Under the pieces are notes generated by a model. It was not told the origin of the DNA and searched no databases. It worked only from the letters and a program-made list of their open reading frames with translations. Made by a program: the position numbers and the translations under genes. DNA of 47,510 bases from Clostridia bacterium (lineage in GTDB: Bacteria > Bacillota > Sulfobacillia > JAJZYS01 > JAJYTV01), in contig DAIBJA010000015.1 of the NCBI GenBank assembly GCA_027420455.1, forward strand, positions 1 through 47,510, given 5' to 3'. Positions within the stretch are counted from its first letter, which is position 1; the number at the start of each line of letters is the position of its first letter. Of this stretch, positions 4,350-17,835 are shown piece by piece.

Positions 4350-5819
4350 CTATCTTCCCCGATCGTCACCGGCCAGGACCCGGGCCGAGAGTTCCGCTCG
4401 GCCGTGCGTTCCCGTCTTGCGGTAGACGCTCGCGAGGTGTGTCTTTACGGTGTTTTCGCTGACAATCAACTCTTTTGCCATTTCGCCCACCGTCATGCCC
4501 TGGATGACGAGGCGAGCCACCTCCAGCTCGCGCGGACTCAGCGGTGTCGTGGCCATGTCAGCAAGGTCGAGGCCTAGACGGTCTGCGGTCGTGGGTGCGG
4601 GAGACGCCTCGATCGCGTGCGCGTCCAAGGCGTCCAACGGAAGCTCCGCCAGCCTACTGCTGTTCGGCGCGCGCACGAGCAAAGGGGTGTCCCGGAAGAA
4701 GACGATGGCGAGGAGCATCAGGAAGAGCATGCCGCCCGCGAGAGTAGAGTTCGGGAGGCGGGCCAGGGCGGGCACCTGGGCCTGGAGCCCGGCGCCGATC
4801 AGAATGGGCAGCACATTCATGTTGAGCCCGATGCCGAAGACGGTCGCCGTGCCGTAGGAGGGCGCAATCTCAAGCAAAGCTACCCAGGTCAGGAGGTCCA
4901 TCGCCGCGTAGCCCGCACCCATCAGCACCTGAACGAACGCAGCTCCGCCGGCGTTGGGCGAGGCCGCCCACACCAGGAATGCGGCGCCCAGCAGGAGGGG
5001 TCCCGCAAAGGCCACGTTCCTCAGCGTCGTGCGGTCGCCGAAGATGGCCAGTACTGGGATGGACACCACGTAGGCCAGCAGACTCGGATCCACGGACGAG
5101 TGCAATGCCCGCAGAAGACTGGGCGTCACGGCGGCGTACGTCACGCCCGACGCCAGGTATACGACGAAGAGAAAGGGAGCGAGCTGCCAGAGCGGTCGCA
5201 GATCCGGGAAAGGCACCGCGGGTGTGGCCGCGGCCATCATGGGTCCCTCCACGTCCACGCCGCGCAGCCTCGGACCGTATGCCACACTCGCCACCAGCGG
5301 CAGGGTTGCCAGGACGACGAGCCATGCGGGCTGCACGTGGCCGATACCCAGCGACCAGATGTACTTGAAGGCATTGGCGGCGATGGGCACGCCGGCGAAC
5401 GCAATGGCCCGGCGTCTCAGGGGTACGACGGCCTTGAACGCGGGCGCCCAGGCGACGATGCCCCATGCGGCTACAAGCCCCAGTAGCGGGAACGTCACCA
5501 AGGCGACGGCGGGGGCGAAGGCCGTCAGCAGCGTCAGCGCGAGACAGATAGGCGCCGCCCATGCGAGGCCCGCTTTGCGGAACGGGGCCCAGATGTCCGA
5601 GAGCAGGCCCGATCCTGCCAGACCGAGCGCGTGACCGCCTAGAAACAAATAGACGGGTGCGGTCGGATCCAAATGTGCGGCGGCGGCCAGGCCAAGCCAG
5701 GTTGGTCCGAATAGCGGTACAGATAGTAGCCAAGCGAAAATGCCGCCAAGAAATGAGATCGCGGGGACTAGCGTGCGAGGCGCAGCCCTGTCTCCAGCAA
5801 ATGGGACAGCCGCATCCAT
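4350..5819 (-). CDS. MFS-like 12-TM membrane protein fused to a LuxR-type HTH regulator
   Basis: Residues 1 to about 400 of 489 form roughly a dozen hydrophobic segments with an MFS-like layout. The last 70 residues are a LuxR/GerE helix-turn-helix, with the signatures LSPRELEVARLVIQGMTVGE and IVSENTVKTHLASVYRKTG. Membrane-bound regulators of this build are known in several high-GC lineages and are thought to sense a small ligand through the membrane half and bind DNA with the cytoplasmic tail. The linker (about 400-420) is Ala/Pro/Asp-rich. The gene is divergent from the envelope operon starting at 5969, with two palindromes in the shared upstream region, so it probably controls that operon and itself. 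The ligand is unknown. Confidence 0.85.
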   Translation of the reverse strand: MDAAVPFAGDRAAPRTLVPAISFLGGIFAWLLSVPLFGPTWLGLAAAAHLDPTAPVYLFLGGHALGLAGSGLLSDIWAPFRKAGLAWAAPICLALTLLTAFAPAVALVTFPLLGLVAAWGIVAWAPAFKAVVPLRRRAIAFAGVPIAANAFKYIWSLGIGHVQPAWLVVLATLPLVASVAYGPRLRGVDVEGPMMAAATPAVPFPDLRPLWQLAPFLFVVYLASGVTYAAVTPSLLRALHSSVDPSLLAYVVSIPVLAIFGDRTTLRNVAFAGPLLLGAAFLVWAASPNAGGAAFVQVLMGAGYAAMDLLTWVALLEIAPSYGTATVFGIGLNMNVLPILIGAGLQAQVPALARLPNSTLAGGMLFLMLLAIVFFRDTPLLVRAPNSSRLAELPLDALDAHAIEASPAPTTADRLGLDLADMATTPLSPRELEVARLVIQGMTVGEMAKELIVSENTVKTHLASVYRKTGTHGRAELSARVLAGDDRGR

Positions 5820-5846: not shown

Positions 5847-5885
5847 TCACCCCTACGGGTGATGGCCATTCACCGCTACGGGTGA
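5847..5885. promoter_or_regulatory. Paired palindromic operator candidates in a divergent promoter
   Basis: Two 16-base sites, TCACCCCTACGGGTGA (5847-5862) and TCACCGCTACGGGTGA (5870-5885), differ at one position. The first is a perfect 6+4+6 palindrome. Their starts are 23 bases apart, about two helical turns. They sit 28 bases upstream of the LuxR-type regulator's ATG on one side and about 84 bases from the envelope operon on the other. The regulator encoded alongside is the natural candidate ligand for these sites. Confidence 0.7.
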
Positions 5886-5968
5886 TTTTCCTGCGCCAGG
5901 GAAGTGCTTTCAATGAATTACAGTGGAACGATGTCCGGAAACCGTTCCCTTCATCAAGAGGAGAGGGA

Positions 5969-6190
5969 GTGGACACCATCAAGGTACTCAAGTGGGCGGG
6001 TCGCATCCTGGCCATCCTAGCCGTCGTCATGGCGGTCGTGGTCGGGCTCTCGGGCAGCTGGGGCGATGCCATCTACGCCCTGTTTCTCGGAGTGATCATC
6101 TGGTTCTGGACGGACTTCACGGTGGCGAGGATGGCTCGCAACCGCATGGAGCGGGCCGCGAAGCAGTCTTCACAAGGGGAGAGCCACTGA
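5969..6190 (+). CDS. Small two-TM membrane protein
   Basis: This 73-residue protein starts at GTG with AGGAG 6 bases upstream. Two hydrophobic segments (WAGRILAILAVVMAVVVGL and DAIYALFLGVIIWFWTDFTV) are separated by a short SGSWG turn, and the C-terminus is basic (ARMARNRMERAAKQ), which favours a cytoplasmic tail. No family is recognised. It is the first gene of an apparent operon (gaps of 20-55 bases) with a PrsW-like protease, a polytopic membrane protein, a secreted protein and a lipoprotein, so it is probably an envelope component. Confidence 0.7.
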   Translation: MDTIKVLKWAGRILAILAVVMAVVVGLSGSWGDAIYALFLGVIIWFWTDFTVARMARNRMERAAKQSSQGESH

Positions 6191-6221: not shown

Positions 6222-7391
6222 GTGTACTGTCCTAGTTGCGGGGCCACGAACGCCGAAGGTGGCCTGCATTGCATCCACTGCGGCCAAGCCCTGACGGCGG
6301 CGCCGACGGAGGCAGCGCAGGGACGGCTGCCGACGGCCCCAAGTCAGCATTGGGCCATTCCGGACCTTGTCTCGACCATGTTGCCGCACGCCGCGCCGCA
6401 CCGCCGGCGGGCATTTTGGCTCGCCATGCTCCTTGGCCTGCTGGTGCTGCTTGCGTGGGGCGCCCTCGCCGTCTGGCTGGACGACCCGGGTGTGACCATC
6501 CGGCTCCTGGTGTTCGGATCGCTCTTCGTGCCCGTCCTCTTCGTCTTCTTCATGGCCAGCGAGGGACTTACCGAAGAGCCCCCGGCGATCGTGCTGGTGG
6601 AGATCTTCGTGGGCGTCGCGCTCCTGGGCAACCTGGTCGCCTTCCTGCTGAACAGCTTCCTCCCGTTCGGTCTGGCGGGCGCCGGACCGGTGGAGGAGAC
6701 GGTTAAGTTCCTCGGCGTCGTTTGGCTCCTTCGGCGGCGCAAGTACGTCTCGATCATGGACGGGATCCTGTTCGGGGCCGCGGCGGGCATGGGCTTTGCC
6801 GCCTCGGAGAACCTGAGCTACTTCTTCTCCACCTACTCGACCTACGGCATCGCGGCCGCGGCAAACGCCCTGCAGGCGGGAGCCATTCACTCCTTCGCCC
6901 AGCTCCAGTACGCATTCAACCACGCAGGCCTCTCCGGTCTCCTCAACGTCTTCTTCCTGCGCTCCTTCCTAGGGCCCTGGATGCATGGCTCCTGGACGGC
7001 GATCATCGCCGGCGTGGCCTGGCGCGAGGCGTCGGGCGGCAAGATCCGCATCGACCTGAAGCTGATCGGCACCGCGCTCCTGGTCATGGCCATGCACTCG
7101 CTGTGGGACCTCTCGACCGGTGTGGTGTCGGATCTGCTGTTCGTCGTCATCCTGATTGTCGACGTCTACTTCCTGCGCGGGCTGATCCTCGCCGCACACC
7201 GGCAGGAGCGAGGCGAGCCGATCCAGGAGGACCGTCCCACAAGGGCACGGCGGCCCAGGTACTGCCCGCACTGCGGCGGGCGCCTCAGCCACGACGCACA
7301 GTTCTGTGGCAAGTGCGGCGGCCTGGTGGACGCCGGGGCGGTCGTCACAGCCGCGCAGGCACCGTCCGAAGCTGTCGTGAGCCCGTCCTGA
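6222..7391 (+). CDS. prsW: PrsW-like intramembrane protease with N- and C-terminal zinc ribbons
   Basis: The 389-residue protein begins with a zinc ribbon (CPSCG...CIHCG, residues 3-21) and ends with another (CPHCG...CGKCG, about residues 347-366). Between them lies a multi-TM core with PrsW/CAAX-like motifs: GPVEETVKFLGVVWLLRRRK with the catalytic-type EE pair, AASENLSYFF, a conserved His in WMHGSWTAIIAGV, and HSLWD near the end of the core. PrsW of Bacillus subtilis cleaves the anti-sigma factor RsiW at the membrane; whether this homologue does so is unknown. The GTG start is set by GGGGGAG 5-6 bases upstream. Terminal zinc ribbons on both ends are an uncommon addition and suggest a cytoplasmic partner or metal-dependent control. 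Confidence 0.85.
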   Translation: MYCPSCGATNAEGGLHCIHCGQALTAAPTEAAQGRLPTAPSQHWAIPDLVSTMLPHAAPHRRRAFWLAMLLGLLVLLAWGALAVWLDDPGVTIRLLVFGSLFVPVLFVFFMASEGLTEEPPAIVLVEIFVGVALLGNLVAFLLNSFLPFGLAGAGPVEETVKFLGVVWLLRRRKYVSIMDGILFGAAAGMGFAASENLSYFFSTYSTYGIAAAANALQAGAIHSFAQLQYAFNHAGLSGLLNVFFLRSFLGPWMHGSWTAIIAGVAWREASGGKIRIDLKLIGTALLVMAMHSLWDLSTGVVSDLLFVVILIVDVYFLRGLILAAHRQERGEPIQEDRPTRARRPRYCPHCGGRLSHDAQFCGKCGGLVDAGAVVTAAQAPSEAVVSPS

Positions 7392-7411: not shown

Positions 7412-8995
7412 GTGGCTGAGATCGGTGTGGGCGCGCCGCGAGAAGCCATGCGCCCGGAGACTCCACCCTACTGGCTACGCTACGCTGGGCACTTCGTGCG
7501 CTTCGGCACCCTCGACCCGCTCATCCGCGGCATGGCCTTCGCCGCCACCGCGGCGGTGGTCCTGGGCCTTCTGGTGCTCACCCTGCCGCTTGAAAGGCTG
7601 GCTGCTGTTCACGCGGCGACAGGGCTCCTGAACATTCGCATGCCTTGGCCGGTTCTGGCCGGAGGAGCCCTGCTCCAGGCGGCTGGCTGGTGGTATCTCC
7701 TGGCGGGCGCGGCGATGGCCGGCGCAGTGATGCGCTGGCCCATCGCCCTTGCCTTTCTCCTGTTTTTCGGACTCGTGGTGCCCGGCGATCTGGCGGTTGC
7801 GCTGCCGGTCCTCCTTACGATCGGCTACCTCATCTACACGGCGTTCCGGCGGCCGACCGACAAGTGGGCTTTGGCCATCACGGGCGGGTTGGTCGTCCTC
7901 ACCTACCTTCTCCTGTTCTTAAGCGACGCCGCCGCGGTGTCCATGACCCTCTTGAACCAGGTCATGGTTTTCTACCTCCTGTTCATTCCGATCATCTTCT
8001 ACTCCGGCTTCGACCTCGGCCAGACGGGCCTCTACCTCACACGATTCGCGCTGACCCATGCCCACCGCCACCTCGGGGCGGAGGTTGTCTGGTGGTTCGC
8101 GCTCGCCATCGTAGGCGTGAAGATCCTGATCCTTGCGCTAACCTGGCAGACGCCGGGACTTGGCGTGATCACGGCCCTCCTGCTGATCGCGGTGGCGGCC
8201 TGGGCGTGCCGCGCCGTATCGCCGAAAGAGGAGGAGCCGCCAGAACTGCTGCCGTTCCTTGCGGCCCTATTGATCATTCTCGTCGTCTTCATGCCTCAGG
8301 GGCTGCATCTTGTCTTCGGCTGGAGCGCCCTGCTCGCGCTGGTTCTGGCCGCGGTGATCCTGCCGATCTCCCGCCGGCGACCCGGCTGGCGCGCGGGGGC
8401 GATATTCCTGCTTCTCTTCGGCCTTTGGAACGTCAGCAATGTGATGGCTCTCGGTCCCGGCCACCCGATCTGGGTCCTTTCGCATAGCTTTCCGGCGATC
8501 GGCGCCCGCGGCATGAACGAGGCCGTGACCCTTTCGGCCCTCGGCTACCTCCTCTGGCTCAGATGGCGTCGTCGCCTGACCGTCGAGCGAGCCCTCTTCG
8601 CCGTATTCTGGCTGCTGGGCCTCACGCTGGCCCTCGACACCTGGAACCTCTTCGACTGGATGCACACCTTGACGCGCGGTCTGCTCTCCGCCGAGGCCCT
8701 GCTGCTGATCGTCGGCATCGGCCACGAGATCCTTGCGAGCGGCGGCATCCTCAACCGCGGCTCGAAGGGACTCCCGCGCAACTCGCGCGTCCTGCTCTAC
8801 CTCGGCTACCTTCTCCTCCTCGTGGGAGCGACCGTCCTCGCGAACGGTACCCAGGGGCCGGGGGCGGACCTCATCAACACCGATGACCTTCAGGCCGGCG
8901 GTCTGATCCTGATCGGCCTGCCACTCTACCTCCAGCAGTTCCTGCACGCCTTCTCGTTCGGCCACCTGCCGCGCCTGGAGGAGGACGAGGCATGA
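7412..8995 (+). CDS. Polytopic membrane protein of unknown function
   Basis: The 527-residue protein has about 14 hydrophobic segments spread along nearly its whole length, short Arg/Lys-containing loops and an acidic C-terminus (RLEEDEA). It starts at GTG after GGGGGAG, 20 bases behind the PrsW-like gene. I see no catalytic, transporter-signature or nucleotide-binding motif. Its position between a regulated protease and two exported proteins suggests a shared envelope task, but that is inference. Confidence 0.75.
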   Translation: MAEIGVGAPREAMRPETPPYWLRYAGHFVRFGTLDPLIRGMAFAATAAVVLGLLVLTLPLERLAAVHAATGLLNIRMPWPVLAGGALLQAAGWWYLLAGAAMAGAVMRWPIALAFLLFFGLVVPGDLAVALPVLLTIGYLIYTAFRRPTDKWALAITGGLVVLTYLLLFLSDAAAVSMTLLNQVMVFYLLFIPIIFYSGFDLGQTGLYLTRFALTHAHRHLGAEVVWWFALAIVGVKILILALTWQTPGLGVITALLLIAVAAWACRAVSPKEEEPPELLPFLAALLIILVVFMPQGLHLVFGWSALLALVLAAVILPISRRRPGWRAGAIFLLLFGLWNVSNVMALGPGHPIWVLSHSFPAIGARGMNEAVTLSALGYLLWLRWRRRLTVERALFAVFWLLGLTLALDTWNLFDWMHTLTRGLLSAEALLLIVGIGHEILASGGILNRGSKGLPRNSRVLLYLGYLLLLVGATVLANGTQGPGADLINTDDLQAGGLILIGLPLYLQQFLHAFSFGHLPRLEEDEA

Positions 8996-9050
8996 TGACG
9001 GGAGCCCCACGCGGCCGGAAACCAGTCGGATGACGGAGGGAGTGTTACAC

Positions 9051-9518
9051 ATGGTCCATAGGCGCCTGGCGGTGCTGACAGCCGCTTGCGCGCTAGCGCT
9101 GCCGCTCTATCCGGTCAGCGCGGCGGCTTCGCCTCAGAAGACACTGCCGATCAAGATCTGCCTGAGTCAGCCGAAGAGCGTGCAGATGGGCGGCCAGGAC
9201 GTCCTGAGCTGTCCGAACCCCGCGACCAACGTGCCGAGGAAGAAGTCCTTCTATCTCCTCATATCCGTAACGGCCCAGCAGGGGTTTCAGACCTATGCCC
9301 TCGACTGGGCGCTGAAGCGCTGGCAGCCGAAGCGCCACCGCTGGGCGACGATGCGCCAGCAAATTGGGACAAAGATCCAGCCCGACTGGCAATACGTGTG
9401 GCTGTCGGAGCAGGGACTCGCTCCTGGCAGCTATAGGGCCTTCGTCTCTTCGGACTTCCTGGCCAAGTATACGAACGCGCCGATGTTCTACTTCGCCACC
9501 TCGTTCAAGGTGCGTTAG
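9051..9518 (+). CDS. Secreted protein of unknown function
   Basis: A 155-residue protein with a clear signal peptide: basic start MVHRRL, hydrophobic run AVLTAACALALPLYPVSA, probable cleavage near AAA-SPQ. The mature part has two cysteines (KICLSQ and VLSCPNP) that could form a disulfide, and many aromatic residues (W, Y, F) typical of a small beta-rich fold. The ATG at 9051 is preferred over an earlier in-frame ATG because GGAGGGAG lies just upstream and the signal peptide then begins properly. It is the fourth gene of the envelope operon. Confidence 0.7.
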   Translation: MVHRRLAVLTAACALALPLYPVSAAASPQKTLPIKICLSQPKSVQMGGQDVLSCPNPATNVPRKKSFYLLISVTAQQGFQTYALDWALKRWQPKRHRWATMRQQIGTKIQPDWQYVWLSEQGLAPGSYRAFVSSDFLAKYTNAPMFYFATSFKVR

Positions 9519-9555: not shown

Positions 9556-10101
9556 ATGGTGCCCTTTCGATCGAGGCCGAACATCCGGCGTCTGGCTCTT
9601 GGCCTGGCCGTGGGAGCTGCGCTGCTGGGCGTCGCCGCGTGCTCCGGAAACCAGGGCGGTGGCAACCCGGCGGTGACGTCAGCCGCAAGCGGCGTGTCGT
9701 GCCCTGCGGGACCAACCAGCTCGCCCGGCACGTTGACGGCGTCGGGGCAGCAGTTCAAAGGTGACGGGCTCGACGTGACGGCTGAGGCCAGTCTCGACCC
9801 CAACTACGGCGTGAATGGCACGATCGATGTCAAGGTGACTGTCCTCTGCCCCACCGGCGTGACCGACGTGAGCGTCTTTCAGAGCTACCAGTACTATGGG
9901 TCGACCGTCGGTGCGCATCTTTCGGAACTATCCCATGACGGCAACACCTGGACCTTCGCGCTCTTCGCCGACAACCTGAGCGGCCAGGAGCCATTCCAGG
10001 TGGCTCTGTACCAAGGGGCGCTCTCGGGCAGCGGCAAGCCGGCCCTCGCGACCATCGTCTTCAAGTGGCCGGCAAGTCTAATCAAGGACATGGCGAGCTA
10101 A
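9556..10101 (+). CDS. Putative lipoprotein
   Basis: The 181-residue product starts MVPFRSRPNIRRLALGLAVG and carries a lipobox-like segment LLGVAACSG, so Cys-29 is the probable lipid-modified residue after signal peptidase II cleavage. The mature part is Gly/Ser/Thr-rich, then beta-rich with several aromatic residues (SYQYYGS, DGNTWTFALFADN). GGAGGA lies upstream of the ATG. It is the last gene of the envelope operon. No domain family is recognised. Confidence 0.75.
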   Translation: MVPFRSRPNIRRLALGLAVGAALLGVAACSGNQGGGNPAVTSAASGVSCPAGPTSSPGTLTASGQQFKGDGLDVTAEASLDPNYGVNGTIDVKVTVLCPTGVTDVSVFQSYQYYGSTVGAHLSELSHDGNTWTFALFADNLSGQEPFQVALYQGALSGSGKPALATIVFKWPASLIKDMAS

Positions 10102-10697: not shown

Positions 10698-12224
10698 GTG
10701 GAGACGCGACCAGCCCAGGAGAACCGCTACGTCGTGCGCCTGGGCTTGGTGGGCCAGGCGAGCGTCGAAGACGCGTACCAGCTGACCGGTGCCAAGATCC
10801 TGCACCTGATGATCGTCGCCATCCTGGAGCAGGGCGGCCCGCTGGATCTTGAGCAGATGGTGGCGCGGCTCGAGCGGGCCGGGGTGCCCTCCCGCGTCGG
10901 GAACCTCGCCGTCTCCGTGCAGAAGGCCTGGGCGGGGCGGCCGCCCATCTACCGCGATACCCACGGCCGCTTTGACCTGGACCTCCAGTACTGGGAGCTT
11001 CCCTGGCTCTTGCGCGGGCTCGGCCTGCTGCCCCCGCCCAAGGGACCTGCGATCGTGCCCGAGCCGTCCCCGCCGCCGCCTTCGCCGGCCCCCTCGGAGC
11101 CGCTCTCCCAAGACGAGGTGACCGCGGCGTTCCGGGATGCGAGCCTCTACGGGTTCGCCGCCTCCCGGCAAGTGGCCGCCGTCCTCGACGGCTATGGCTC
11201 GCCGCTGGCCTTGGAGGCGGTCGAGGAGATTCTCGCGGGATTGACCCGCTGGCGCTTTGCCTTCGACCAGACGCGCGTCCGCTACTGGAAGACGCCGCTC
11301 GTCTCGCTGGGGCCGGAGGGCCTTGCGCACCTGAACCGCGACTGCCCCGAACTCCTCGAGATGCGGGCCATGGTGCGCGAACGCGCACGCCCGCACTACG
11401 AGCGTCTGGCGGCGCAGCAGCGGTCGGAGGACTACGCCAGGGCGGCGCGGGAAAGGGAAAGGCTTGCGCGTGAGGCAGAGACTGCGCAGGAGCGCAATAG
11501 GAGCCACGCCGTGCTGCGCCTTGTCCGACTTCCGGACGGGCGGGCCGGCTGCGCCGCGCTGCTTGATGTCGAGCGGCGGGAGATCAGGACGTTCCTGCCA
11601 AAGGAGATGGCAGACCTGCCACAGGCGCTCGGCCGCCACGACGCCCTAGCAGGGCTTGACGTCCGCGACGCCCTCGAGGTGCTCGGCTTGGCCCCCTACG
11701 ACTGGAAGCTCGAGGAGCTGCGACCGTCCGAGCGGACGGTCAGGCTGAACCGCGCGGGTCGACGCCTCAGGATCACGTTCGAACTCGTGAGCCGCTCCAC
11801 GACCGGCATCCAGCGCCCCCTGGCCGATCCCGAGGTTCTGGCCGGCTACATCGCAAAGGCCACCTGGGGTCGCCTGCGCAGGCGGCTTGAGAGCGATGTC
11901 AAGGCGCTCTACGCCATTCGGCAGTACGCCGCGCTGCACGGCTACGTGCGGCTGCGCTGGGGCTTCATCGACGACGTTCTTTCCCTGGAGTGGACAGCCT
12001 TCAGCGAGGCGACGCTGCTGCCGGCGCTCCACGCCGCGCAGGAGAGCGGCGAGACGATCGCACTCGTGCTCGGCGGGGCGCCAGGCTGGGCCGAGCCCTG
12101 GTCGCGGGTCCGCCGCTGCAGGGTGCTGCGCGTCGAGCGCGGCCGCGCTCAGTTGGCGTTCGAGGGCGAGCAGTTCATCGAGGCGATCCCCCTCGAGGAC
12201 ATCCAGGCCTTGTACCGCTTGTAG
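10698..12224 (+). CDS. Winged-helix protein with a WYL-like C-terminus, unknown function
   Basis: This 508-residue protein starts at a GTG 5-6 bases after GGAGGGAG. The N-terminal 100 residues look like a winged helix (ILHLMIVAILEQGGPLDLEQ, then MVARLERAG). A Pro-rich linker (about 110-130) leads to a second helical segment, then a strongly charged, probably coiled-coil stretch near residues 230-270 (ARAARERERLAREAETAQER). The C-terminal 80 residues (WSRVRRCRVLRVERGRAQL and AIPLEDIQALYRL) resemble the ligand-binding end of WYL proteins, only by general pattern. WYL-type regulators often sit at the head of defence loci. It precedes the helicase and ATPase genes, so a regulatory or sensor role in that block is plausible but not shown. 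Confidence 0.6.
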   Translation: METRPAQENRYVVRLGLVGQASVEDAYQLTGAKILHLMIVAILEQGGPLDLEQMVARLERAGVPSRVGNLAVSVQKAWAGRPPIYRDTHGRFDLDLQYWELPWLLRGLGLLPPPKGPAIVPEPSPPPPSPAPSEPLSQDEVTAAFRDASLYGFAASRQVAAVLDGYGSPLALEAVEEILAGLTRWRFAFDQTRVRYWKTPLVSLGPEGLAHLNRDCPELLEMRAMVRERARPHYERLAAQQRSEDYARAARERERLAREAETAQERNRSHAVLRLVRLPDGRAGCAALLDVERREIRTFLPKEMADLPQALGRHDALAGLDVRDALEVLGLAPYDWKLEELRPSERTVRLNRAGRRLRITFELVSRSTTGIQRPLADPEVLAGYIAKATWGRLRRRLESDVKALYAIRQYAALHGYVRLRWGFIDDVLSLEWTAFSEATLLPALHAAQESGETIALVLGGAPGWAEPWSRVRRCRVLRVERGRAQLAFEGEQFIEAIPLEDIQALYRL

Positions 12225-13479
12225 GCCTACGTATCACCTGCCCTGGGAGGTGCGGCTGCATCGCCCGCGATGCGCTCCGCTCGCGGCCGGCGCCGCAGGG
12301 GCGGGAATGGCTCGACCGATCGGGGCAGTTGCACGGGGCCGCCCAAGGGGCGAAGCCGCGCGGGGTACGTCTTGGCGATGGGAGGCACCCGGGGCAGCGG
12401 GGGATCTGCGGCCAGGCGTCGCGCCCGCAGCAGTGCTTGTACCTGCGGCCGCTGCCGCACGGGCAGGGTTCGTTGCGACCTGGGCCCGGCTCCCGACGCC
12501 ACGGCTCGCGGCCCGACGGGATGAGGTCACCCTTGGGCCCACAGTGGTCGGGCGGCGTGCGATCCGGGCTGAGCAGGAGCGAGGCGAGGGGCAGGTATGC
12601 AGCCGCGTCGTCCCCGCGTGCGCGGATATGGATCGTCGTCTCCTCCATGCGGGTCCATATCGTGTCGCCGGTTTCCTCCTCGGAGGGGAAGAAAGGAATC
12701 TCGTCCCCAGAGTTCCGATGGATACGCATGAGGTCTCTCAGCGCGGCCGCGAGGAGCTTGCGCATTTCCTGAAGCGGCAGGGCACGGTAGCGGCGCGCCA
12801 CGGCGACGGCGTGGCGCAGGTGGCGTGCGGCCTCCGCCGGATCGAGGCGGCGCAGCATGTGGCCGATGAGCAGCAGAAGGGCCTCGAAGTGATCCGGTTC
12901 GAGGTCGAGGGCGCGCTCCGCAGCGGCCATCGCGAGATCTGGCCTGCCGCCCGTCAGGTAGACGTTCGCGAGGCGGACGAAGTGCTGGGCGTTCAGGGGA
13001 TCCGCGAGCAGCAGGTCGAGGAGATGCTCCTCCGCGTCGGCGCTGCTGCGCGGGCGGTGGCCGTCGAAGAGTTCGATCTCGCCCAGCCCCCCTGGCGATT
13101 TGCTGCCGAACGCGCGGCCGAGTACCCCGCCCGCGATGGCACTCAGGGCCAGGTAGTCCAGATCCGGCGAGGTCCAAGGGCCGCCGGCGCCGCAGCTGTG
13201 GCAGCGGAAGTAGCCGACGAAGGTGACCTGCGGCGAGCCGCCACGATCCTGCGACACGAGCACGGGGCCGACGTCGTAGAGGTTCCGTGCGCCGCAGACC
13301 GAGCAGGTGACCTCCTGCGGATTCTCGCGCCAGCCGTCGCGGCAGAGGTCGAGGTGCCCGCTCACCTGTGCGACGAACGGCCCTGGGAGCATGCTCGTCT
13401 CAGGCGCATCCCGTCCGGAGTCGGTTCCGGTCAGAACTCTCAGGAAGGCAGGATGGCAGCGCTCGCTTCCGTGGTCCAT
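12175..13479 (-). CDS. SEC-C motif protein with zinc-ribbon and TPR-like region
   Basis: About 434 residues if started at ATG 13479, which has GAGGTG about 9 bases upstream; a later ATG at 13392 is possible. A four-Cys element (CSVCG ... CHSCG, about residues 59-95) is followed by TPR-like helices (HFVRLANVYLTGGRPDLAMA, AAERALDLEPDHFEA). A SEC-C zinc motif (NEPCPCGSGRRYKHCCG) lies near residues 333-349. SEC-C occurs at the end of SecA and in many accessory proteins. The roughly 80 residues after it are low-complexity, rich in Pro/Arg/Cys, and read poorly. The gene overlaps the convergent neighbour by 50 bases and runs against the block's other genes. Confidence 0.65.
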   Translation of the reverse strand: MDHGSERCHPAFLRVLTGTDSGRDAPETSMLPGPFVAQVSGHLDLCRDGWRENPQEVTCSVCGARNLYDVGPVLVSQDRGGSPQVTFVGYFRCHSCGAGGPWTSPDLDYLALSAIAGGVLGRAFGSKSPGGLGEIELFDGHRPRSSADAEEHLLDLLLADPLNAQHFVRLANVYLTGGRPDLAMAAAERALDLEPDHFEALLLLIGHMLRRLDPAEAARHLRHAVAVARRYRALPLQEMRKLLAAALRDLMRIHRNSGDEIPFFPSEEETGDTIWTRMEETTIHIRARGDDAAAYLPLASLLLSPDRTPPDHCGPKGDLIPSGREPWRREPGPGRNEPCPCGSGRRYKHCCGRDAWPQIPRCPGCLPSPRRTPRGFAPWAAPCNCPDRSSHSRPCGAGRERSASRAMQPHLPGQVIRRPTSGTRPGCPRGGSPR

Positions 13480-13978
13480 GCCCCAATGCACCTCGCGATG
13501 GCTTGACGCGACGATTCGTCCCGGATATCGTGGGCAGGCGAGTCTCGCGAGGCTCCGCAGGGAACGGCCAGACTGAGCGCACAGGAGCTGGCAACGGCTC
13601 CGAAATCGGTCCACCGATGCGACTGCGGCACAAAAAGGCGCCACTCCTGAGGCGGCGGACCGCGCTTGCGCCGATCTGCCGCCAGCGCTCCCTGGAGGCT
13701 GTCGGCCTGCCCTGCCACCCGGTGCAGCGAGCAGCGGGGCTGCGCCGAAGCCATGGCCCTATCCGTCTCAAGTCCGCGAGATCGACCGACTCGAGGCTGT
13801 CGGCCGATCTGCGCGCTGCGCACGGCTGCACGCCCTGTCTGCGTGCGCCCCCCCACGAAGGACTGTCTGCGGTCCGGGGCGAACCTGTCCCCAAAATGTC
13901 CGCGGGAGCTGAGCGCCATTGCAGCCTGCCGTTCGTCCTGCGGGGCGCTCGCCCTTGCCGCGGCTCGCGCTCCTGGAC
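13480..13978. other. Upstream region of the SNF2 helicase gene, no gene seen
   Basis: About 500 bases. The helicase frame can be extended upstream with TTG codons (for example 13919), but I see no ribosome binding site fixing any of them. No strong hairpin or tandem repeat was noticed. It should contain divergent promoters for the SEC-C gene and the helicase gene. Confidence 0.4.
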
Positions 13979-15907
13979 ATGGAAGAAGGGTTCCTCGCCC
14001 CCACCCAGAGCCTCCTCGGCGCGCTGCACGCGTTCGGAGACAGCCTGGGCGGCCCGCCTGCGCTGCGAACGCCCGGTGGACGCACGGTGGAGCCGTCCCT
14101 CCTCGACCTCACGCCGCTCGGCGGGCCGGAGGGGCGGGAGTTCGAACGGCTGGGAGCGTTCGCAAGGGTCACTGCCGGCCCGGCCGGCAGCGTCGACGTC
14201 GCCTCCGCCCTGCCGGCGGCCTTGCCGAAGCACCTGGGTTCGTTCCAGACCCTTACCGACGCCCTGCGGCGTGGCAAGGAGGTCGAGGGCGGTTACGCGG
14301 AGCTCGTCGACCAGGCCCTGCAGGTCTGGGCCAAGCCGGGCTTCGATGTCCTCATCTCGCCGCCGCGCCTCGGCTTCACGCCCTACCAGCACCAGCTGCA
14401 GACGGCGGAAGCGGTCCTGCGCCGGATGCACGGCCGCGGCATACTGGCCGACGAGGTCGGGCTCGGCAAGACGATCGAAGCGGGCATCGTCCTGAGCGAG
14501 CTCTATATGCGTGCCCTCGCGAGGCGCACCCTCGTGCTGCTACCTGCCGGACTGGTCGGCCAGTGGAGCGAGGAGCTGCGCCAGAAGTTCCAACTCCCCT
14601 TCGTCGCCTATGGCACTGCGGCCTGGGAGCGGGAGGGCGACCCTCTCGCGGCGCCGATCGTGCTCGCCTCGATCGCGTCCGCCCGGCGCAGCCCCCTGCG
14701 CGAACGCCTCGCGGAGATCAGCTGGGATCTCGTGGTGGTGGACGAGGCCCATCGGCTCAAGAATCCCCGCTCCGCCTCGGCCTCGCTTGTCAAGGCGCTG
14801 CGTACGCGGTACATGCTCCTGCTCACGGCCACCCCGGTGGAGAACCGGCTGGACGACCTCTACCAGCTCGTCAACCTTGTGCGGCCGGGCCATCTCGGCA
14901 CGCCGGCCACCTTCAAGGCGCGCCACAAGCCCGAGGCGGGCGGCGGTGTCGCGCATCTTTCAAACCTGCAGCGGGCGATGCGCGACGTCATGGTGCGGCA
15001 TCGGCGCAGCGAGGTGGCGCTCATGCTGCCTCGGCGCATCGCCGAAACCCTTCTCGTCGCGCCGAGCGCGGCGGAGGCCGAGCTCTACCGGGCGGTATCC
15101 GATGAGGTGCGCCGCCAGGCCCAGGGGGCTTCCACAGCCGCCATCTTCACGCTGCGCCAGATCCAGCGTCTGGCCGGCTCCAGCCCGCAGGCGCTCGGGG
15201 GCGGACTTGCCCGCATGGGCTGGTCGGGCCTGGCGGAGCAGGCTCGGGCGGTCACGGCGAGCGAGAAGGCCCGGGCGCTCTGGCTGCACCTGCGCCAACG
15301 CCTCTCCGCGGGCGAGAAGGTGGTCGTGTTCACCGCCTTTCGCGACACGCTGGCCTACCTCGCGGCGCAGGCGAAGCGGGAGGGGCTGCTCGCCGCCGTC
15401 TACCACGGCGGTCTCAGCCGTCGCGAGAAGGACCTGGCGATCGCGTCCTTCGAGGGCGACCGTGACCTCCTGCTGACGACCGAAGCGGCAGGCGAGGGCC
15501 GCAACCTGCAGTTCTGCCACGTCATGGTCAACTACGACCTGCCATGGAATCCCATGCAGATCGAGCAGCGCCTGGGGCGAATTCACCGCATCGGACAGAC
15601 CGAGGACGTGCGCCTGACGAACCTCGTTTCCCGCGGCACGCTCGAGGAGCGCATCCTCGGTGTGCTGGAGGCGAAGATCAACCTCTTTGAGCTGGTGGTG
15701 GGCGAGCTCGACATGATCCTTGGCCGGATCGAGGACGATCTGGACCTCGAGTCCATGATCTTCGCCTCCTATCTGGAGAGTCGCAGCGACGACGAGTTCG
15801 CGCGGCGCCTCGAGGAAATCGGCGACGGCTTGGCGGAAGCCAGGCAGGCATACCTCGCGAGCCGCAGCAAGAACGACAGCCTGCTGGGGGAGGTCGACGA
15901 GCCTTGA
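13979..15907 (+). CDS. SNF2-family DEAH helicase/translocase
   Basis: A 642-residue superfamily 2 ATPase of the SNF2 (RapA/HepA-like) group. Motifs are intact: FTPYQHQLQTAE upstream of motif I, GILADEVGLGKTIEAG (Walker A, about residue 160), VVVDEAHRLKN (motif II, 255), LLLTATPVENRLDDLYQLVN (motif III), FTAFRDTLAYL (motif IV), and NYDLPWNPMQIEQRLGRIHRIGQT (motifs V-VI, about 520-540). It should translocate on double-stranded DNA using ATP. The stop overlaps the TTG start of the next gene (TTGA), so the two are translated together and probably form a complex. Similar helicases occur in DISARM (DrmD) and other defence loci. The start is the least certain feature; ATG 13979 gives MEEGFLAPTQ. Confidence 0.85.
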   Translation: MEEGFLAPTQSLLGALHAFGDSLGGPPALRTPGGRTVEPSLLDLTPLGGPEGREFERLGAFARVTAGPAGSVDVASALPAALPKHLGSFQTLTDALRRGKEVEGGYAELVDQALQVWAKPGFDVLISPPRLGFTPYQHQLQTAEAVLRRMHGRGILADEVGLGKTIEAGIVLSELYMRALARRTLVLLPAGLVGQWSEELRQKFQLPFVAYGTAAWEREGDPLAAPIVLASIASARRSPLRERLAEISWDLVVVDEAHRLKNPRSASASLVKALRTRYMLLLTATPVENRLDDLYQLVNLVRPGHLGTPATFKARHKPEAGGGVAHLSNLQRAMRDVMVRHRRSEVALMLPRRIAETLLVAPSAAEAELYRAVSDEVRRQAQGASTAAIFTLRQIQRLAGSSPQALGGGLARMGWSGLAEQARAVTASEKARALWLHLRQRLSAGEKVVVFTAFRDTLAYLAAQAKREGLLAAVYHGGLSRREKDLAIASFEGDRDLLLTTEAAGEGRNLQFCHVMVNYDLPWNPMQIEQRLGRIHRIGQTEDVRLTNLVSRGTLEERILGVLEAKINLFELVVGELDMILGRIEDDLDLESMIFASYLESRSDDEFARRLEEIGDGLAEARQAYLASRSKNDSLLGEVDEP

Positions 15908-17835
15908 GTCTCGAGCCCGCGCTGCGGTTCTTCCTGCGCTATGCCGAGGCCCGGGGCGCGGAGGTGGTCGTGGAGCCCGACCAGGCGCTCGTGCACCTGC
16001 CGACGGACCTCGCCGCCGCTCTCGCCCTGCCGCAGGAGCTTGCCCTGACCTCGGATGCCGAGGTAGCGCAGGAGGGCGGCCAGATGCTGGTGATCGCCGG
16101 CCATCCCGTCCTGGAGGCAGCGGCGGAGCATGTGCTGTACCAGGGCGACGCGGGCTGGCAGGCCTTGTCTGTGCCGGCCAGCGCCTTGCCGGATGCGCAG
16201 GCGCTCCTCGGGCGCCTCAGGGAGTTCTACCCGGTGGAGCACGGCCGCCTGGATCTGCTGGTGCCGCCCGAGCAGGTCTACCTGCCGCTGCTGCGGGTGG
16301 GCGCGCTCATCACGCTGACTGGTGAGGACCGCTTCCTTGAGATTGGCGAATCGCTGCTGGACGCGGTTGCGTGCCTGCCGCTGGCGCCGGAGATCGGGCA
16401 GCGCGTCCTGTCCCTTGGCCCCACGTCGGCCCCGGAGCCGTGGAGCGTCCTGCTGCCGGACGTCGCGGCTGCGCTGGAGGTCGCGCAAGCGGAGATCGAA
16501 CGGCAGGCGGCCAAGCGGGCCGAGGAACTGTCCCGCCAGGCGCTTTCGGACATGAAGGAGGAGCGCGAGCGTGCGCGGGCCTTCTACGCGGCGCAGCTGG
16601 CGCAGATCGCGAAACGGCGCCAGCGTGCGGCAGAGGAGCGCCAGCGTCTCTACGACGAGCAGGCAAAGGTGACGGCGCACGAGGCGGAGCGCCGCCAGGT
16701 CGAGATCGAGCGCAAGTACCGCGTCGAGGCCAGCGTCCAACCCTATCGGCTGCATCTTGTGCTGGCGCCAGCCTTGCACCTTGAGCTCGAGGTGCGGCGC
16801 GGGGATCGGCGCTATCCGCTCGCCTGCAACTTCCTGCTCGGCGCCGGCAGCTTCCTGCCGCTGCGATGCCCGCTCTGCGGCGCTGCGCAGCCCCTAGTCG
16901 CGGGCAGGGAGGCGCTCGGTTGCAGGGCCTGCCAGGAGGGGAGGAGTGGGCAGCCTGCTCCTTCGTCTGCGCTCACGGCGGAGAAGACGGCGCCTGCGCC
17001 CACCGCGGCGCAGGTGATGGCGCAGATCGGGCAACAGCAAACCCAGGCGCGGCCCAGGGCGCCTGCCGCAGGGTCCGGCAGGCGCCCGCAGCGGCGGACC
17101 GATCCGGGCAAGGCGCGGCCGGATCGCCAAAGCGAGCGGTGGCGCGCGTGGCAGCCGCTGCCGCCTCTGGCGGAGGAGTTCTTCCGCTCCGTGCTGGCGG
17201 GCGGCGCGGCCGAGGCTCCCATAGCTAGGCATTCGCCGCTCGACATCGCCCTGCGCTGGTTCGACTGGCGGGGACTGCACGTGCTGCTGGACCTGCCGTA
17301 CCCCGAAGCGCCGGTGACCGGTGCCAGGCTGTCGTCGCTCGCCCTGTTCGAGGGCCATCACCTGTCTGGCCAGGTGCAGGTGGGACGGCACAAACGCGAG
17401 TTCTCTCTGCTGACCGACGGCAAGGCGGAGAAGGCCACGCTCTGGGAGGTCCTGCCCTGCCGGATCGTCCAGGGGGACCGCCTGGCGCCGCTTGTGCACC
17501 TGGGACACCAACTGATCGGCTTGGACGAGATGGGCAACCGGTTCGGCCCGCCGGCCGGGATCGACGAGGTGGAGTGGACCCTGCTGGCCAGGGGCTCCGA
17601 ACGCTGGCAGTTGCCGCTTCTGCTGCGGGCGGTGAGCCTGTGGCGCCGGATCGGTCGCAAGAACCCCGGCGTCTCCCCGCGTGCGACAGCGGGCGCCCTC
17701 CTGCTCCTGGCGACGGGCCAGAGCGGACTGCGCACGGAGGACGGCGCCGTGGCGGCCTCATTCGACGCGGATGCCCTGCGCACGCGTCAGGCGGCGGAAG
17801 GGCTCGCGGGCCGCGTGCCGGCCTTGACGCTGTGA
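15904..17835 (+). CDS. Coiled-coil and zinc-ribbon protein, partner of SNF2 helicase
   Basis: The 643-residue protein starts at a TTG that overlaps the helicase stop codon by four bases, which is direct evidence of coupling. Residues 1-185 are mixed alpha/beta. A long charged coiled coil follows (about 189-275, rich in Glu/Arg/Gln). Next is a globular piece containing a zinc ribbon (CPLCG at about 321, CRAC at about 340), then a Pro/Gln/Arg-rich linker (350-420) and a C-terminal domain (WFDWRGLHVLLDLPYPEAP). No catalytic motif was seen. Coiled-coil plus ribbon proteins next to SNF2 enzymes usually serve as DNA-recognition or scaffold subunits. I do not recognise a named family. Confidence 0.75.
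   Translation: MSLEPALRFFLRYAEARGAEVVVEPDQALVHLPTDLAAALALPQELALTSDAEVAQEGGQMLVIAGHPVLEAAAEHVLYQGDAGWQALSVPASALPDAQALLGRLREFYPVEHGRLDLLVPPEQVYLPLLRVGALITLTGEDRFLEIGESLLDAVACLPLAPEIGQRVLSLGPTSAPEPWSVLLPDVAAALEVAQAEIERQAAKRAEELSRQALSDMKEERERARAFYAAQLAQIAKRRQRAAEERQRLYDEQAKVTAHEAERRQVEIERKYRVEASVQPYRLHLVLAPALHLELEVRRGDRRYPLACNFLLGAGSFLPLRCPLCGAAQPLVAGREALGCRACQEGRSGQPAPSSALTAEKTAPAPTAAQVMAQIGQQQTQARPRAPAAGSGRRPQRRTDPGKARPDRQSERWRAWQPLPPLAEEFFRSVLAGGAAEAPIARHSPLDIALRWFDWRGLHVLLDLPYPEAPVTGARLSSLALFEGHHLSGQVQVGRHKREFSLLTDGKAEKATLWEVLPCRIVQGDRLAPLVHLGHQLIGLDEMGNRFGPPAGIDEVEWTLLARGSERWQLPLLLRAVSLWRRIGRKNPGVSPRATAGALLLLATGQSGLRTEDGAVAASFDADALRTRQAAEGLAGRVPALTL

Follow-up and report, generated by a model that had tools for sequence, protein, structure and literature searches.

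In the window, the whole stretch of 47,510 nucleotides analyzed here, two nearly identical palindromes lie between the gene for a membrane-bound LuxR-type regulator and a divergent operon encoding envelope proteins, and the question that the locus raises is what binds them and with what consequence for the genes on either side. Sequence comparison suggests that the twin sites serve a membrane-embedded LuxR protein as its cognate operators, from which it would activate surface and envelope genes, a reading to which we assign a probability of about three in four.

Twin Palindromes and the Flanking Genes

The two 16-base palindromes reported in an earlier, sequence-only reading of this DNA are present at 5847..5862 (candidate operator site 1, TCACCCCTACGGGTGA) and 5870..5885 (candidate operator site 2, TCACCGCTACGGGTGA) and agree at 15 of 16 bases, the sole difference being at position 6. 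Site 1 has perfect 6-bp arms, TCACCC-N4-GGGTGA, and site 2 has 5-bp arms, its sixth position being a G/G mismatch in all orthologs as well; the arms of the sites read TCACCCC and CGGGTGA. The consensus of the pair is TCACC-N6-GGTGA, which replaces the TCACCN4-5GGTGA given previously. The centers of the sites are separated by 23 bp, or 2.19 turns of 10.5 bp, which puts them about 69 degrees out of phase, so that the spacing is not helically phased as had been proposed, yet it is invariant in five distinct loci. A common helical-phasing rule was also rejected, the center spacings in different loci being 23, 21, 34, 45, and 47 bp.

The position of these operator-like sites between a regulator gene and a divergent five-gene envelope operon is as originally described. 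On the left, luxR (4350..5819, minus strand) begins with an ATG at 5819 and encodes a regulator of 489 residues whose C terminus is a LuxR/GerE helix-turn-helix (HTH) domain (residues 426-477; PF00196, E = 2.3e-14, 53.2 bits against a cut-off of 23.5). Its N-terminal part shows 12 hydropathy peaks on the family average, within the range of 10-12 transmembrane (TM) segments sought, and a profile of the protein searched against known structures gave a weak match (E = 3e-4) to the sugar transporter STP10 of the MFS type. The hydropathy peaks and the GerE domain (E = 2e-14) uphold the description of the regulator as a 12-TM/LuxR fusion; an AlphaFold model of the regulator with four orthologs was too poor to use (pLDDT 40, pTM 0.35). 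Beyond luxR, on the side away from the sites, a domain search identified a gene for an S-layer/TIG protein.

On the right, the first gene of the operon encodes a small membrane protein of 73 residues (5969..6190, plus strand), in an open frame with a GTG start and a ribosome-binding site, and is found at every orthologous locus, including the shortened one in genome G052. It is followed, on the same strand, by genes for a PrsW-family intramembrane protease with zinc ribbons (6222..7391; PF13367, E = 4.4e-23; Zn_ribbon_3, E = 4e-8), a 527-residue polytopic membrane protein (7412..8995) that is conserved in five orthologous loci and has no family match in Pfam or NCBIfam, a 162-residue exported protein of no known family with a signal-peptide-like N terminus (9030..9518), and a 181-residue predicted lipoprotein with a lipobox-like LLGVAAC in its translation (9556..10101), the last two having relatives in G052. 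The translation of the PrsW-family gene contains EETVK, FAASEN, HGSW, and MHSLWD, which we take to fit the EExxK, FAxxEN, and His motifs of the PrsW site-1 protease; its score against the PrsW equivalog NF033739 is 23.9 bits, below the cut-off of 225.

Conservation among Orthologous Loci

Five distinct versions of the locus were compared, namely those of the window (identical to G051), G050, G048 (identical to contig C21 of the genome bin), G047, and G052. It should be noted that the genome bin is a chimera of two species of one genus: in DNA comparisons, the window contig (G000:C77) is 100% identical to G051 and 83% identical to G048, and bin contig C52 matches G048 at 100% and G051 at about 78% identity. 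On these identities the C21 copy was rejected as a paralog; because the bin mixes two species, it is most simply the sister-species ortholog, with one locus per species.

The pair of sites and the 23-bp spacing of their centers are kept in all five loci. Site 1 is TCAYCCYTWYGGGTGA in the four aligned orthologs and TCACCTGTTTGGGTGA in G052, and site 2 is conserved as TCACCGCTWYGGGTGA; G052 retains both sites, with changes, at the same 23-bp spacing. In four distinct orthologous intergenic regions, the twin-site block is invariant at 31 of its 39 columns versus 35 of 110 elsewhere (Fisher p = 2e-7), and the block is the best-conserved noncoding one between luxR and the divergent operon. Because orthologs are few and the intergenic regions short, a chance pair of palindromes that owes its conservation to close kinship only might be considered, but the significance of the block conservation, together with the recurrence of the palindrome in distant families and in held-out loci described below, makes this explanation negligible.

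Within the family of the window, the regulator, the 527-residue protein gene, and the twin sites co-occur or are lacking together, all three being absent from G044, G045, G046, and G049. The PrsW-family protein, which the sequence-only reading had made part of an envelope-sensing circuit, is indeed encoded in the operon as a PF13367 protein but does not belong to its conserved core. The G052 operon consists of the small open reading frame, the exported protein, and the lipoprotein, without the PrsW and 527-residue proteins between them, and the PrsW relatives of G052 are encoded elsewhere, where no matching site was found; PrsW is therefore an optional part of the system.

In the bin (1.98 Mb), TCACC-N6-GGTGA occurs at six places, of which three belong to the window locus or to the sister-species copy on C21 and three (on C52, C61, and C82) lie inside long reading frames, and the scan detected no further intergenic copy beyond the two species' loci. 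A search of this kind had been set beforehand, with many unrelated copies in the genome as the outcome that would count against the sites; such copies did not turn up in the bin, and within the window's own group only this one locus has the twin sites.

The Palindrome across the Phylum

Homologs of the regulator, identified with a profile restricted to the TM domain, are found throughout the class and phylum at about 30% identity or less to the window's protein, and nearly all of the homolog loci taken further encode a LuxR HTH at the C terminus. In an unbiased enumeration of spaced 5-mer palindromes upstream of 41 membrane LuxR genes, TCACC-N6-GGTGA ranks first, being present at six loci, four of which belong to the window's family, against at most three loci for any word in 60 shuffles. 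The flanks (300 bp on both sides, with obvious terminators excluded) were then scanned for TCAYCC-N4/5-GGRTGA. When the window's family is set aside, 12 of 37 membrane LuxR loci have perfect matches (shuffle mean 0.01), a count that includes one match (L090) that is probably a terminator that passed the filter and three loci (L082, L086, and L087) from one genus, so that about nine independent discovery lineages remain. A further 4 of 16 held-out loci have a perfect site (shuffle mean 0.00, maximum 0); the shuffle controls for both sets do not model kinship. The flanks contain 17 perfect matches in 32 kb, and the coding sequence of the regulators has none in 72 kb. Of the 53 loci outside the family, 37 show no perfect site in the 300-bp flanks; some of these have imperfect or divergent sites and some none. 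Downstream matches could not all be treated as operators, as several are terminators, and these were set apart. In G027 both arms are altered together to give TCATCC...GGATGA, a paired change that is expected of a dimer site.

The sites might instead be bound by a different protein, such as a response regulator of the cytosolic LuxR/NarL type, with luxR merely one of its targets. The HTH family is large, and a similar palindrome is present beside a few genes for cytosolic LuxR proteins (L019, L023, and L146), the ordinary cytosolic LuxR loci L019 and L023 carrying a perfect site. However, in the window's group the sites and the membrane LuxR co-occur or are lacking together at a single locus, and phylum-wide the perfect sites are concentrated in the sequence flanking membrane LuxR genes, which leaves binding by a different protein improbable in comparison with binding by the membrane LuxR itself. 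The control set of "ordinary LuxR" genes was found to include membrane LuxRs (L025/L065 and L032), and the counts obtained with it therefore overstate the background. The TCAYCC code may nevertheless be shared with other LuxR subfamilies. As a separate observation, in the cytosolic LuxR-type genes L146 (G026:C11:12419) and L023, a TCAYCC-N4-GGGTGA palindrome is situated just past the 3' end.

Distance to the Promoter

At several loci the order of elements is luxR, terminator, palindrome, and next gene. A -10-like hexamer (TATAGT, TATGAT, TAAAAT, TACTAT, TATGCT, and others) is located 30-32 bp from the center of the palindrome (0 of 5000 shuffles). This distance was first noticed by eye and then tested on sites that had not been used before: it holds at ten further loci with upstream sites (0 of 3000 shuffles), where the best hexamers, up to TATAAT, are mostly oriented away from luxR, and at 20 held-out sites, which comprise most of those ten loci together with unlinked sites, 31 and 32 bp are the top two of 42 distances (z = 3.8 at 31 bp). 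When the rule from these other loci is applied to the window, TTCAAT at 5909..5914 on the plus strand, 31-32 bp from the center of site 2, is the predicted -10 hexamer of the rightward operon, and it is invariant in four orthologs. Site 2 is thereby predicted to be centered at about -43 from the start of the operon, the position of a class II activator of the LuxR type.

A consensus scan also predicts a promoter for luxR, TTGAAA-N17-GAAAAT (5885..5913, minus strand; 9 of 12 positions), which overlaps site 2 on the opposite strand. This overlap, through which a bound protein could block transcription, and the twin arrangement of the sites would both suit a membrane LuxR that represses the two divergent promoters and is released by a signal. 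A fixed distance of 31-32 bp to the -10 hexamer of the neighboring gene is, on the other hand, the geometry of an activator, and the proteins with this architecture that have been characterized are activators (PMC9734109); repression is accordingly considered unlikely, although it is the most credible of the alternatives.

The promoter geometry also bears on whether the leader RNA of luxR folds at the palindromes into hairpins that serve as an attenuator, a protein-binding site, or a weak terminator. Both precede the luxR start codon and may belong to a 5' leader, and site 2 with its T-rich tail was flagged as terminator-like, but the flag counts for little (one such element found where 0.4 are expected), the stems are only 5-6 bp, a search of Rfam gave no match, and at other loci real terminators stand separately beside the palindrome. 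Moreover, the -10-like hexamer of the facing gene is downstream of the palindrome in relatives, so that the palindrome would be outside that gene's transcript, which points to a DNA operator rather than an RNA element of that transcript. A role as an RNA hairpin is for these reasons very improbable.

Proposed Mechanism and Relation to Known Systems

In the mechanism that we favor, activation by the membrane LuxR, the 12-TM protein would stay embedded in the membrane, where its MFS-like domain may perceive a signal, and its C-terminal HTH domains would bind TCACCC-N4-GGGTGA as dimers. On site 2, at about -43, the regulator would act as a class II activator, in contact with RNA polymerase, and so turn on the envelope genes, with support from a putative second dimer on site 1, 23 bp farther from the operon. 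The bound protein would also lie over the predicted start of luxR and so limit synthesis of the regulator; this negative autoregulation, predicted from the overlap of site 2 with the luxR promoter, is the least certain step. In relatives across the phylum, the same operator and geometry would activate neighboring or unlinked surface-protein genes, and the recurrent palindrome is probably the DNA switch by which membrane-anchored regulators turn on such genes.

In class II activation by LuxR, the lux box is an inverted repeat centered at -42.5. The sites described here resemble it as an inverted-repeat dimer site that is predicted to overlap the -35 region, with the -10 hexamer about 31 bp downstream, but they differ in sequence and length (16-17 bp versus 20 bp), and the regulator is membrane-embedded whereas that of the lux system is a soluble acyl-homoserine-lactone receptor. 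The 7-2-7 site of NarL, TACYYMT-NN-AKRRGTA, is likewise an inverted repeat of 16 bp, has ACCC at the core of both arms, and is read by the same HTH family; however, the TCACCC arms do not conform to TACYYMT heptamers spaced by 2 bp, and the window's regulator has no receiver domain. PrsW and RsiW form a proteolytic system for envelope stress, with which the locus shares a gene for a PF13367 protein in the operon, but the score of that protein is below the equivalog threshold, no anti-sigma partner is found among the operon genes, and PrsW is missing from the G052 operon.

The closest characterized proteins in architecture, an N-terminal 12-TM domain and a C-terminal LuxR HTH, are DadR, CadR, and HcdR of Eggerthella lenta, 10-12-TM LuxR proteins of the Coriobacteriia that are substrate-responsive activators of adjacent metabolic genes (Dong et al. 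2022, PMC9734109). The likeness is one of architecture and of gene order, since in both cases the regulator gene adjoins the genes thought to be controlled, here a divergent operon with shared candidate operators in 5 of 5 loci. The window's regulator differs in belonging to Bacillota and to a single-copy locus, and its neighbors encode envelope and surface proteins, whereas those of the E. lenta regulators encode catechol-metabolizing enzymes. The operator and promoter geometry are a further difference, being deduced here; no palindrome or inverted repeat is given in the text of PMC9734109 or in two more recent papers that refer to DadR, CadR, or HcdR, and a literature search for the motif or for operators of membrane LuxRs yielded nothing relevant and no published operator.

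Membrane-embedded LuxRs, in which an HTH domain fixed to 12 TM segments has to engage a promoter, are a recent and poorly understood family. The present comparison adds a proposed operator and promoter geometry that recur across the phylum. A conserved operator at a fixed distance from the promoter provides a sequence handle for finding their regulons and links one branch of the family, in Bacillota, with control of surface and S-layer genes; if the Coriobacteriia regulators use the same code, their regulons would also be readable from sequence. A broader proposal, which is tentative and which we regard as less likely than not, is that a family of membrane-embedded LuxR activators spanning the phylum has TCAYCC-N4/5-GGRTGA as its ancestral operator, binds it from the membrane at about -43, and controls surface layers and surface proteins, the drug- and polyphenol-responsive regulators of the Coriobacteriia being a metabolic offshoot with the same code.

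Genes Facing the Sites

The link to envelope and surface genes that had been proposed for the window is strengthened by the genes that face the sites in relatives across the phylum, many of which encode exported or surface proteins. These include an S-layer protein (L060), Big_5 (L110), beta-helix (L100), and ChiW-Ig (L059) proteins, a transglutaminase-like exported protein (L124), lipoproteins (L089 and L114), and a recurrent two-TM protein of 170-180 residues (L088, L092, L093, L095, and L103); some neighbors, such as that at L056, are not obviously exported. Zinc-ribbon membrane proteins are encoded beside membrane LuxR operators at L093 (3577-4074), L095 (3683-4054), and L135 (2408-3016), as in the window (6222-7391). 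Perfect sites that are unlinked, with no membrane LuxR nearby and one elsewhere in the genome, face genes for SLH (L130) and TIG (L140) proteins and, at L135, for zinc-ribbon or DUF7489-like membrane proteins. The targets at L130, L135, and L140 are likely to be further members of the regulon.

Several minor observations may be added. The unlinked palindromes of L130, L135, and L140, at position 1501, are accompanied by a -10-like hexamer near the predicted distance, and DUF7489-like domains are present in L135 and L129. In several families the gene that immediately follows the operator encodes the 170-180-residue two-TM protein, and most copies contain a FVSCFGILLDSKIIKFN-like motif; the L093 copy, which was the one searched, has no Pfam match. 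Elsewhere in the window, a fragment of an ISL3-type transposase gene is located at the contig end (29-310), and a cluster at 10698-17835 encodes a 508-residue protein, an SNF2-type helicase whose best PADLOC matches are BrxH, DrmD, and HmaA, and a 643-residue protein. This cluster is possibly a defense or DNA-repair module, and related DNA is present in relatives at 74-97% identity.
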